Below are positions 41,970-48,461 of a DNA stretch of 64,000 bases, piece by piece. Position 1 is the first letter of the stretch. Each line of letters opens with the position of its first letter. The notes below the pieces were generated by a model that was given only the letters and a program-made list of their open reading frames with translations, was not told the origin of the DNA and did not search any database. The translations under genes and the position numbers were made by a program. Source of the stretch: Iamia majanohamensis (GTDB taxonomy: Bacteria > Actinomycetota > Acidimicrobiia > Acidimicrobiales > Iamiaceae); NCBI RefSeq assembly GCF_028532485.1, contig NZ_CP116942.1:558001-622000 (forward strand). Reading direction: 5' to 3'.

Positions 41970-43235
41970 TCAGGCGACGCCGAGGTCGGCCTCCACCTTG
42001 GCCAGGGCGCCGTCGAGGATGGACAGGGCCTGGTCGGCCTCCTCGGTGCTCACCACCAGGGCGGGGATGAGCCGCACCACCTGGCCCTCGGGCCCGCAGG
42101 TGAGCAGGATCATCCCGGCCTCGTTCGCGGCCCGCAGCACCCGGGCCGCGGCCTCCCCGGCGGTGGCCCGCTCGGTGGCGGCCATCTCCAGGCCGATCAT
42201 CAGCCCCCGGCCCCGCACGTCGGCCACCAGCGGGTGGGACCGGGCCAGGCGGCGGCAGCCGTCGATGAGGTGCCCGCCGACCGCGGCCGCGTTGGCGACG
42301 AGGTGCTCCTCGTCGATGACCTCGAGGGTGGCCAGGGCGGCGGCGCAGGCGACGGGGTTGCCCCCGTAGGTGCCGCCCTGCGAGCCGGGAAACCCCCGGC
42401 CCATGAGCTCCGGGGAGGCCATGATCGCCGAGAGGGGCATGCCGCTGGCGAGGCCCTTGGCCGTGATCACCACGTCGGGGCGGACGCCGGAGTGCTGGTG
42501 GCCCCAGAAGCGCCCGGTGCGGCCCACCCCGGTCTGGATCTCGTCGGCCACGAGCAGCATGCCGTGGCGGTCGCAGCGCTCCCGCAGCCCGGCGAGGAAG
42601 GCGTCGGGCACGGGGACGTAGCCGCCCTCGCCCAGCACCGGCTCGATGAAGACGGCCGCGGTCTCGGCCGGGGCGGTGGTCGTGGCGAGCAGCAGGTCGA
42701 GCTCGCGGAGGCAGAAGGCGACGGCCTCGTCCTCGGTCCAGCCGTAGCGGAAGGCGTGGGGGAAGGGGGCGATGACGACCCCGCCGAGCAGGGGCTGGAG
42801 GCCCGCCCGCACCGCCAGCTTGGAGGTGGTCATCGACGCCGCGCCCATGGTGCGGCCGTGGAACGCGCCCTGGAAGACGATCACGTTGGGGCGCCCGGTG
42901 GCGTGGCGGGCCAGGCGGAGGGCGGCCTCCACGGCCTCGCTGCCGGAGTTGGAGAAGAACACCGACCCGAGGGCGGGCAGGCGGTCGGCCAGGGCCTCGG
43001 CCAGGTCACCGAGCAGGGGGTGCAGCACCGTGGTGGTCTGGCCGTGGATCAGCTCGCCGGCCTGGCGACGCACCGCCTCCACCACCTTCGGGTGGCAGTG
43101 CCCGGTGCTGGTGACCCCGATGCCGGCGGTGAGGTCGAGGTGGCGCCTCCCCTCGTCGTCGACGAGCCAGACGCCCTCCCCCCGGACCGCTCGGACGGGG
43201 GAGGCCTGCGTGAGGAGGGGGGAGAGGGCGCCCAT
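41970..43235 (-). CDS. Class III aminotransferase (4-aminobutyrate aminotransferase-like)
   Basis: A 421-residue PLP enzyme. 'DLTAGIGVTSTGHCHPKVVE' at the start, 'FFSNSGSEAVEAALRLAR' for phosphate binding, 'FHGRTMGAAS', 'LVADEIQTGVGRTG' with D231, and the PLP lysine K260 in 'ITAKGLASGMP'. Members act on omega-amino groups (GABA, beta-alanine, acetylornithine); with the neighbouring aldehyde dehydrogenase it would convert an omega-amino acid to a semialdehyde and then an acid. Start ATG 43235 is 26 bases from the GntR palindrome. Confidence 0.92.
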   Translation of the reverse strand: MGALSPLLTQASPVRAVRGEGVWLVDDEGRRHLDLTAGIGVTSTGHCHPKVVEAVRRQAGELIHGQTTTVLHPLLGDLAEALADRLPALGSVFFSNSGSEAVEAALRLARHATGRPNVIVFQGAFHGRTMGAASMTTSKLAVRAGLQPLLGGVVIAPFPHAFRYGWTEDEAVAFCLRELDLLLATTTAPAETAAVFIEPVLGEGGYVPVPDAFLAGLRERCDRHGMLLVADEIQTGVGRTGRFWGHQHSGVRPDVVITAKGLASGMPLSAIMASPELMGRGFPGSQGGTYGGNPVACAAALATLEVIDEEHLVANAAAVGGHLIDGCRRLARSHPLVADVRGRGLMIGLEMAATERATAGEAAARVLRAANEAGMILLTCGPEGQVVRLIPALVVSTEEADQALSILDGALAKVEADLGVA

Positions 43236-43261
43236 GTCGTGACCCTTCGTCGTCGGGCAGG

Positions 43262-43279
43262 TAGATTGTCGACAATCTA
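43262..43279. promoter_or_regulatory. GntR operator, copy 2 (perfect 18-bp palindrome)
   Basis: TAGATTGTCGACAATCTA equals its reverse complement and contains the 12-bp core found at 39358-39369. It lies in the divergent gap between the aminotransferase and the DUF3830 gene, so it could control both. Confidence 0.9.
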
Positions 43280-43415
43280 ACGACACCGGCCCCGGGCGTC
43301 GAGGCACCCGGGCACAGCCGTCGAGCGACGACCTGTCGCCGACGGGCAACCTGGACGAAACACCGGGGCGCGATCCTCCTGGGACACACCCGGTCGGCAC
43401 CACCCGGAGGCGGGC

Positions 43416-43925
43416 ATGGCACGACACCTCTCGATCGAGCTCCCCAAGCACGACGTGCGCGCCGTGGCCCGCCTGCTCGACGGCGAGGCCCCCCGCACCT
43501 GCGAGGCGGTGTGGTCGGCCCTGCCGGTGGGCGGCGACGTGTACCACGCCAAGTACGCCCGCAACGAGCTCTACACCTTCGTGCCCCCGGTGTCCGAGGG
43601 GCTCATCGGCCCCGAGAACCCGACGGTCACCCCCATCCCCGGCGACCTCGTCTACTTCGAGTTCGCCTCCGGGGTGCTGCCCGCCGCCAGCCACGGCTAC
43701 GCGGAGGACCAGGGCGCCGCGGGCCGGGACCTGGTGGTCGACCTCGCCGTCTTCTACGGGCGCAACAACCTCCTGCTGAACGGCGACGTGGGCTGGGTGC
43801 CGGGCAACGTGTTCGCCACCGTCGTCGAGGGCCTCGACGACCTCGTGGCCGCGGGCAACGACGTGTGGCGGGCCGGTGCGGTGGGCGAGGAGCTGCGCTT
43901 CGCCCGCCTGGACGGCGAGACGTGA
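43416..43925 (+). CDS. DUF3830 family protein
   Basis: A 169-residue protein of a family with a cyclophilin-like fold and unknown activity ('APRTCEAVWSALPVGGDVYH', 'NELYTFVPPV', 'TPIPGDLVYFEF', 'YGRNNLLLNGDVGWVPGNVF'). Family members usually sit beside amidases, racemase-like proteins and amino acid catabolic genes, as here. The ATG has GGAGG five bases upstream. Its stop overlaps the next gene as GTGA, so the two products likely act together. Confidence 0.87.
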   Translation: MARHLSIELPKHDVRAVARLLDGEAPRTCEAVWSALPVGGDVYHAKYARNELYTFVPPVSEGLIGPENPTVTPIPGDLVYFEFASGVLPAASHGYAEDQGAAGRDLVVDLAVFYGRNNLLLNGDVGWVPGNVFATVVEGLDDLVAAGNDVWRAGAVGEELRFARLDGET

Positions 43926-44791
43926 CCGTCCTGCCGGCCGGGCCCGCCCCCGGCGCGCTCGCCCCGTCCCGGTACCGGAGCCCGATCCAGTACGACGAGG
44001 TGGCCGCCGAGGTGCCCGTCGGCGTGGTGGTGCCCTTCGACTTCGCCCTCGACTGGGAGTACTGGCGCTGGCTCCCCGCCGGGGTCGCCCTGCACTTCAG
44101 CCGCACCCCGTTCCTCCAGCGCGACGCGGGCATGTACCTGGCCCGATCGGTCAGCCGGCCCAGCACCGTCGACCGCGTGGCCCGCACGCTGCGGGCCGTG
44201 CACCCTGCGGCGATGCTCTACGCCTGCACCTCGGGCAGCTTCGTCGGGGGCGTGGCCGGCGAGGCCGCCCTGCGCGAGGCCATGCACACGGCGGGCTGCG
44301 CACGCGCCGTCACCAGCTCCGGCGCCGCCGTGGCGGCCCTCCGCCTGGCCGGCGCCGAGCGGGTCGCGGTGGCCACGCCCTACTCCGGCAGCCTCACCCG
44401 GCACCTGGTGTCGTTCCTCGACGAGGCCGGCATCGGCGTGGCCTCGGCCGACTACCTCGGGCTCCACCGGGGCATCGCCTCGGTGAGCCAGTCGACCATC
44501 ATCGACCTCGTCCGCCAGGCCGGCAGCAGCGGCGCCGACGCCGTGTTCGTGAGCTGCACGTCGCTGCGCACCTACGGCACCGTCTCCCAGCTCGAGGGCG
44601 AGCTCGGCATCCCGGTGTTCACGTCCAACCAGGTCTCGCTCTGGGCCGTGCTGGTGGCGGCCGGGGTCCTGCCCCGCCCGGCCGACGCCCCCGACCCGGG
44701 GTGGGTGCTCGGCGGGGGCGACCCGATGGCCCGCTCGACGCGCATCCTCATGGACGGCGCGGCCTCGGCCGACGCCCTCCTGTTCGGCTGA
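43922..44791 (+). CDS. Maleate isomerase / Asp-Glu racemase family protein
   Basis: A 289-residue protein of the two-cysteine isomerase-racemase superfamily. Both family cysteines are present at equivalent places: C102 in 'LYACTSGSFVGG' and C212 in 'VFVSCTSLRTYG', as expected for maleate cis-trans isomerase. Possible reactions include maleate to fumarate, racemisation of an amino acid or an EutA-like step. Translationally coupled to DUF3830. Convergent with a second, altered family member. Confidence 0.87.
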   Translation: MTVLPAGPAPGALAPSRYRSPIQYDEVAAEVPVGVVVPFDFALDWEYWRWLPAGVALHFSRTPFLQRDAGMYLARSVSRPSTVDRVARTLRAVHPAAMLYACTSGSFVGGVAGEAALREAMHTAGCARAVTSSGAAVAALRLAGAERVAVATPYSGSLTRHLVSFLDEAGIGVASADYLGLHRGIASVSQSTIIDLVRQAGSSGADAVFVSCTSLRTYGTVSQLEGELGIPVFTSNQVSLWAVLVAAGVLPRPADAPDPGWVLGGGDPMARSTRILMDGAASADALLFG

Positions 44792-44816: not shown

Positions 44817-45554
44817 TCAGAGGGCGAACAGCGCGCCGAGCCCGGCCTGGCCCCCGTGCGGGGCGCCGACCAGGCGCAGGGCCTCCCACATGGTGACCTG
44901 GTTGGCGGTGAGCACGGGCTTGCCCAGCGTCGCCTCCAGCTCGTCGATCCACTCGACGGTGTGCAGGGCGGTGTCGGGCACCAGCACCACGTCGGCGTCG
45001 GGGTGGTCGCCCGCGAGCACGAAGGACCGCACCCGCTCGCGGCCGAAGGTGCCCACCTCGGTGGCGGTGAGGATGTCCTCAGCCCCGGTGGCCACCACGT
45101 CGGTGCCGGCCTCGGCGAGGAAGGAGGCGAAGGCGGAGACCACGTCGGGCGGGTAGGTGGCGGCGACGGCGGGCCGGGTCGCGCCGAGCGCCCGCAGGGC
45201 GGCGACGAAGGCCAGCGAGGTGCTCGACGACGGCACGTCGAGGGCCTCGCCCACGGCGGCGGCCTGGCGCCGCGCCCCGTCCAGGCCGAACACGAAGCTG
45301 CCGCTGGTGCAGGCCCACAGCACGGCGTCGACCCGCCCGGCCAGGTGCGAGGCGCCCTCGGCCAGGCGCTCCGGGCCCCCGAGGTCGAGGAGGGCGTCGA
45401 CCCGGTGGGCGTCCTCGCCCACCGAGGTGTGGACGAGCTCCACCACCGGCCGGGCGTCGACCAGGGTCCCGAGGCGGGGGTACTCGTCCTCGGCCGAGTG
45501 GCCGGGGTAGAGGAACCCGAGCCGGGGGCCGGGCGAGGGGGCGTCGGCGACCAT
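44817..45554 (-). CDS. Maleate isomerase-like protein lacking the second catalytic cysteine
   Basis: A 245-residue paralogue of the preceding protein. The first cysteine is kept (C82 in 'LWACTSGSFVFG'), but where the second should be the sequence reads 'VVLVPDTALHTVEW', with D194 instead of Cys. One-cysteine members of the superfamily include arylmalonate decarboxylase, but there the other cysteine is retained. Two-base isomerisation therefore looks unlikely; a different chemistry or a regulatory role is possible. No GntR palindrome is seen upstream. Confidence 0.82.
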   Translation of the reverse strand: MVADAPSPGPRLGFLYPGHSAEDEYPRLGTLVDARPVVELVHTSVGEDAHRVDALLDLGGPERLAEGASHLAGRVDAVLWACTSGSFVFGLDGARRQAAAVGEALDVPSSSTSLAFVAALRALGATRPAVAATYPPDVVSAFASFLAEAGTDVVATGAEDILTATEVGTFGRERVRSFVLAGDHPDADVVLVPDTALHTVEWIDELEATLGKPVLTANQVTMWEALRLVGAPHGGQAGLGALFAL

Positions 45555-45628: not shown

Positions 45629-45657
45629 TTGGCCCGGGGTCGGTGGGGGAGTACCGT
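45629..45657 (+). promoter_or_regulatory. Predicted promoter of the riboswitch-ATPase transcript
   Basis: TTGGCC (45629-45634), 17 bases, TACCGT (45652-45657). Transcription would begin around 45664, just ahead of the aptamer. Confidence 0.65.
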
Positions 45658-45671
45658 CCTCGGCATCCCCA

Positions 45672-45779
45672 GGAGGGGAGTACCCCGCAAAGTGCTCCAT
45701 CGTCATGACGGCCTCCGGGCCCGGTGGAGCCACCCGAGAGGGTGGGGGAGACCTCCGATCGCCGTCCCTTCGATCGGAG
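45672..45779 (+). ncRNA. yybP-ykoY-type (Mn2+) riboswitch candidate with translational switch
   Basis: The 5' GGAGG (45672-45676) can pair with CCTCC (45752-45756) as stem P1, enclosing GGGGAGTA (L1), CGTCATGACGG, a CCACCC-GAGA-GGGTGG hairpin and GGGAGACC (L3), the conserved parts of yybP-ykoY Mn2+ sensors. A perfect 9-bp hairpin CTCCGATCG/CGATCGGAG (45753-45761 with 45771-45779) uses the P1 3' strand and contains the CGGAG ribosome site six bases before the TTG start of the ATPase. So P1 (ligand bound) and the site-hiding hairpin exclude each other: Mn2+ should turn translation on. Confidence 0.75.
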
Positions 45780-45785
45780 CGCCCC

Positions 45786-48461
<2,676 letters not shown>

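Follow-up and report, generated by a model that had tools for sequence, protein, structure and literature searches.

The yybP-ykoY riboswitch class and its Mn2+ role are already known, and the target of the L. lactis yoaB riboswitch is a P-type ATPase. In the L. lactis aptamer (4Y1I), the Mn2+ site includes U39-C40-A41 and C45, with A41 coordinating the metal (PMC9190785). This riboswitch has a four-way junction that includes helix P2, and its platform is an intrinsic terminator. The E. coli mntP riboswitch, a Mn2+-responsive translational ON switch (PMC11647493), also contains P2, has ACAUACU as L3, and serves a different exporter family. E. coli alx, reported to sense Mn2+ (PMC9603457), is a P2-less form that controls Alx, an exporter of the TerC family; its P4 region is much longer than that of the element described below. 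Among actinobacteria, the terC (cg2157) leader of C. glutamicum scored 49 bits with an earlier RF00080 version and was visible in RNA-seq (PMC3890552).

We analysed a 64,000-nt stretch of the Iamia majanohamensis genome (the window), in which the leader of a PMR1-like ATPase gene is very probably a P2-less, Mn2+-sensing yybP-ykoY riboswitch acting as a translational ON switch before a metal pump (Table 1). Like alx, it has L1 GGGGAGUA, an L3 of the form UCAUNAC, GAGACC and an 18-nt L1-to-CGUCA spacing without room for P2; unlike alx, it precedes a P-type ATPase and has one short hairpin as its platform. Its residues U45703-C45704-A45705 and C45709 match the L. lactis positions, and A45705, as aligned, corresponds to the Mn2+-binding adenosine A41. 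In contrast to yoaB, the window element has no P2 and masks the ribosome site. P2 and the four-way junction of the crystallised members are replaced here by a joiner, and, since alx lacks them too, we did not treat them as defining. The translational ON control proposed for the window element is that of mntP. With the C. glutamicum leader it shares an actinobacterial origin, whereas the target there is TerC. Other Corynebacterium terC leaders match the DNA pattern used for finding relatives.

Table 1. Features of the ATPase leader and gene in window coordinates
Feature	Position	Strand	Basis or remark
Putative promoter: TTGGCC 45629-45634, 17-nt spacer, TACCGT 45652-45657	45629..45657	+	TANNNT enrichment in relatives
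Upstream GGGGAGTACC copy	45646..45655	+	overlaps putative -10 box
Mn2+-type (yybP-ykoY) aptamer, without room for helix P2	45672..45756	+	model R1, 94.6 bits (window is one of its six training sequences); covariation, n = 92
P1.1 5' strand GGAGG	45672..45676	+	partner 45752-45756; 96.1% of cells paired (helix 1)
L1 motif GGGGAGTA	45675-45682	+	remainder beyond P1.1, 45677..45682
P1.2 5' strand CCCC	45683..45686	+	partner 45744-45747
7-nt joiner in place of canonical helix P2	45687..45693	+	L1-to-CG spacing in relatives
P3.1	45694-45702/45722-45730	+	within 45694..45730
L3 UCAUGAC	45703-45709	+	7 nt, contains A45705
P3.2	45710-45713/45718-45721	+	within 45694..45730
P4 hairpin, GAGA loop	45732..45743; stem 45732-45735/45740-45743	+	
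P1.1 3' strand CCTCC (switch strand)	45752..45756	+	45753-45756 doubles as masking-hairpin base
Masking hairpin, 9-bp perfect stem, 9-nt loop	45753-45761/45771-45779	+	shuffles; -13.3 kcal/mol alone
Ribosome-binding site CGGAG, inside hairpin 3' arm	45775..45779	+	6 nt before TTG
TTG start codon of ATPase	45786-45788	+	
P-type ATPase, PMR1/SPCA-like, TTG start	45786..48461	+	TIGR01522; human SPCA1

All elements that the preliminary description had listed for a yybP-ykoY-like core were found in the sequence, and so was the P1 pairing GGAGG/CCTCC that it had proposed. The core runs GGAG-GGGAGTACCCC ... CGTCATGAC ... GGGGAGACCTCC, then CTCCGATCG-N9-CGATCGGAG, with the TTG six bases later. CGTCA is located at 45701-45705, GAGACC (45748-45753) lies opposite the L1 motif GGGGAGUA, and the 3' end of GGGGAGACC is 45753. 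The 5' strand of P1.1 has the same letters as a ribosome-binding site. P1.1, P1.2, P3.1, P3.2 and P4 are all present in the window, and each helix covaries. Across 92 distinct sequences, 90.8% of the cells in the aptamer helices were paired, compared with 76.9% after shuffling, and two-sided changes numbered 334 as against 112 in the shuffles. Sliding the partners by one column lowered the pairing to 54-58%. The first P1.2 pair (helix 2) varies between UA, GC, CG and AU.

L1 GGGGAGTA is exact in 173 of 175 relatives, about 80 of which were retrieved with a pattern that includes GGGGAGTA. The third base of L3 is A in all of the 170 parsed relatives (170/170); in most cases L3 reads UCANNNY where the aptamer precedes an ATPase or TerC gene, and ACANRC where a GDT1 or CDF gene follows. 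The spacing from L1 to the CG at L3 is 15-19 nt in 165 of these 170, which leaves no room for P2. Since E. coli alx has the same spacing, the P2-less form is not new.

Covariance model R1 was built from six orthologous ATPase leaders (five plus the window) and recovers them. It matched in 84 of 395 genomes of the class and in 76 of 396 of the phylum, and it detected E. coli alx, which was absent from model building, with 30 bits (E 4e-5). R1 also confirmed loci from a DNA-pattern scan of named genomes, where the matches listed include Corynebacterium, Arthrobacter, Blastococcus, Nocardioides, Janibacter, Actinomadura, Chloroflexi and others. The genes adjoining the aptamers are mainly P-type ATPases and TerC, followed by GDT1, CDF and CaCA exporters. 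Among the closest ATPase orthologues, five (L002, L004, L005, L007, L009) share the leader found in the window; in five others (L003, L006, L008, L010, L012) a search of the leader region gave no aptamer core. The association of the aptamer with the ATPase orthologue is frequent, not universal.

A second Mn2+-type aptamer is found in the same genome outside the window (G000:C1:537659-537757; L125:560-658), before a GDT1 (UPF0016) gene. Its L3 is ACACGCU, and its platform looks like two successive hairpins, in which the P1 3' strand pairs with GGUCGAGG and a separate ribosome-site hairpin follows, possibly as a relay. Mn2+-type aptamers lying divergent or clustered within ~120-650 bp were seen in several genomes (L205:3382-3487(-)/3615-3723(+), L195:1621-1728(-)/1844-1953(+), L033:780-872(-)/1501-1597(+), G339:C157), with up to five matches in one genome.

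The perfect 9-bp hairpin noted earlier, which re-uses the 3' strand of P1.1 in its 5' arm and holds the CGGAG of the TTG start in its 3' arm, is present. When the downstream leader was dinucleotide-shuffled 5000 times, 5 of the shuffles offered the P1 3' strand a hairpin as good as this one. Perfect 9-bp hairpins are common in the window (53 overlapping matches in 64 kb, compared with 11-23 in shuffles). Because they are so abundant in this GC-rich sequence, relatives were needed to decide, and the comparative data settled the matter. For 174 leaders, the hairpin of the P1 3' strand with downstream sequence had a mean score of 19.3 versus 12.9 for shuffled sequence, and 98 leaders reached p<=0.05, where 5% is expected. 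A ribosome-site-like 3' arm stands just before an in-frame start in 117 of the 174; about one third of the relatives have no clear ribosome-site hairpin in this position.

The two partners of the switch strand change together. GGAGG in P1 goes with GGAG in the arm, and GAAGG mostly with GAAG. The P1 5' base and the ribosome-arm base gave counts of 58/25 against 2/79 (Fisher p 1e-21, a statistic that ignores ancestry). Calculated separately, and again with ancestry ignored, the covariation had p values of 2e-9 within the class and 5e-7 elsewhere. Because P1 and the ribosome-site arm covary, the P1 3' strand is common to two mutually exclusive partners, both of which are maintained. Both strands of P1 covary with the ribosome-site arm as a three-strand swap, which supports translational ON control. 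This design is conserved in many actinobacterial relatives. The preliminary description had regarded the locus as a neat actinobacterial case; its platform is a conserved one, not an isolated example. The clear platform conserved across actinobacteria, with the P1 3' strand as the anti-ribosome-site strand and an arm that copies the P1 5' strand, is new. The relatives support what was advanced at the outset on the class of riboswitch, the kind of target and the translational ON logic. The computation itself shows the aptamer fold, its relatives, the genes that they precede, and the mutually exclusive pairing that covaries over three strands.

The following mechanism is proposed; that Mn2+ is the ligand, that its binding turns translation on and that the ATPase transports Mn2+ are assigned by analogy with the class. 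Without Mn2+, the P1.1 3' strand (CCUCC and the following bases) would pair with the ribosome-site arm CGAUCGGAG, and the masked site would leave ribosomes unable to begin at the UUG at 45786. Mn2+ would join L1 and L3, with A45705 as the coordinating adenosine. In the bound form, P1.1 (GGAGG/CCUCC) would form and take the switch strand away from the ribosome-site arm. The freed site would allow the PMR1-like pump to be made and the excess metal to be exported. The calculated secondary-structure energies were -61.2 kcal/mol for the OFF state versus -49.0 kcal/mol for the ON state. In this energy model, the bias of ~12 kcal/mol toward OFF is larger than an equilibrium switch should have, and it is the weakest quantitative point. 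Mn2+, tertiary contacts and the order of co-transcriptional folding would therefore have to supply the ON state. In a longer fold, the ON state still pairs part of the ribosome site with the early coding sequence.

The same aptamer could instead act mainly through Rho-dependent transcription termination helped by untranslated RNA, with masking of the ribosome site as a secondary effect. The riboswitch region of E. coli mntP is subject to Rho (PMC11647493), and untranslated GC-rich leaders are plausible Rho targets. However, no intrinsic terminator was found in the leader, and the covariation of the ribosome-site arm with P1 points to selection on translation; we regard control mainly by termination as unlikely. 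A reading in which the RNA fold is incidental begins with the in-frame ATG at 45705, inside L3, from which the frame stays open to 45786. This ATG arises only from the local L3 UCAUGAC, whereas the relatives have UCAUCAC, UCAGUAC and other variants, and the strong covariation is of a non-coding kind. The starts of relatives also lie at or near the TTG position, as in L127, where CGGAGCGCCCCGTG aligns to CGGAGCGCCCCTTG. The upstream start was rejected as extremely improbable.

The ligand could also differ, with a related metal-sensing RNA using the same core for Ca2+ or as a broader divalent sensor. PMR1-type pumps also move Ca2+, the target is a Ca2+/Mn2+-type ATPase, and P2 is absent. Against this, L1 is kept, as are the L3 positions (UCA...C) that contact Mn2+ in crystals, other targets belong to the TerC/Alx and GDT1 families, and alx, of the same P2-less form, is reported to sense Mn2+ (PMC9603457). 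A different ligand appears quite improbable.

Among NCBIfam models, TIGR01522 gave the best match to the ATPase at 753.1 bits, under its cut-off of 798.3, and the best PDB match was human SPCA1 (E 1.7e-180). The metal-site motifs PEGLP and MDGPPA are kept. In M6, the ATPase has Met (MDGPPAMALG) at the Gln of human SPCA1 (MDGPPAQSLG), a position that affects Mn2+ transport in yeast Pmr1. The substrate is therefore not certain, which weighs against the main reading, and the change may bear on Mn2+ versus Ca2+ selectivity. The divergent neighbour (44817-45554, minus strand) matches arylmalonate decarboxylase/EutA-like proteins, and an apparent second gene of this type and an aminotransferase gene occupy ~41970-44791. 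Together they look like a small group of catabolic genes that has nothing to do with the switch.

The promoter-like boxes described earlier are present with their 17-nt spacer, and transcription would be predicted to start near 45664. A strict sigma-70 promoter scan gave no match. In 170 relatives, TANNNT was concentrated 13-18 nt upstream of P1, with 8.4 per position at 10-22 nt compared with 0.44 at 25-60 nt. The putative -10 box TACCGT overlaps the end of the upstream GGGGAGTACC repeat, and the repeat therefore probably precedes the transcript and does not serve as a second aptamer strand. The preliminary description had offered this copy as an alternative P1/L1 partner at 45645-45655. The repeat exists, its position was corrected to 45646-45655, and the pairing role was abandoned, the full 10-mer being absent from every other upstream region among the 170 relatives. 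The repeat probably lies outside both the transcript and the switch.

A covariance search with RF00080 had been suggested at the start, with a missing hit, together with no structural change on Mn2+, named as grounds against the riboswitch. Locally run, Rfam 15 RF00080 gave the window element 14.6 bits, aligned to the upstream GGGGAGTACC copy, below the gathering cut-off of 45 bits, which is a database criterion and not a biological one. Nothing reached the gathering threshold in a search of the whole window, and RF00080 had no match in the whole I. majanohamensis genome. The model exceeded its cut-off in only 1 of 296 phylum genomes, and 18 actinobacterial motif loci, three of them from Corynebacterium, had no Rfam match at the gathering threshold. 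RF00080 returned 41.6 bits for mntP and nothing at E<=0.01 for alx. Since alx, reported as a Mn2+ riboswitch, escapes Rfam 15 as well, the missing hit is not a refutation; it reflects a property of the model. The current Rfam model overlooks a large and well-supported set of Mn2+ riboswitches, which a better one would recover, so Mn2+ control is probably under-annotated in actinobacteria. In the Rfam 15 alignments, the RF00080 consensus structure has a long-range 3' helix and no P1 pairing. Other Rfam matches in the window (mir-608, GP_knot1, DUF3800-XI) were far under their cut-offs and chance-like.

Some aptamers precede stress-type genes (L033, L086, L034, L039, L047, L051, L054, L073, L078, L079, L093, L105, L106, L128, L131). 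Universal stress proteins, DksA-like zinc fingers, CBS proteins, site-2 proteases and a Balon-like ribosome hibernation factor are encoded there, a set that resembles the mycobacterial DosR regulon. Two of these genes encode Balon-like factors that score under the strict cut-off of the family, and the one in L086 shares its operon with TerC, which comes after it. No aptamer lay near any of the 30 best Balon-like loci of the class (0/30); a regular association was rejected, and the putative link is rare. As a tentative and rather unlikely idea, the Mn2+ riboswitch may in some relatives have been extended from exporters to genes for stress responses and dormancy (universal stress proteins, DksA-like zinc fingers, CBS, HtpX, and the Balon-like factor with TerC), with Mn2+, soluble as oxygen falls, serving as an RNA-sensed slow-down signal. 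Aptamers also stand before a TFIIB-type zinc-ribbon gene and/or an HtpX (M48) protease gene (L042, L053, L056, L088, L032, L109). The gene order is zinc ribbon then HtpX in L056, HtpX then TerC in L053, and HtpX then ATPase in L088.
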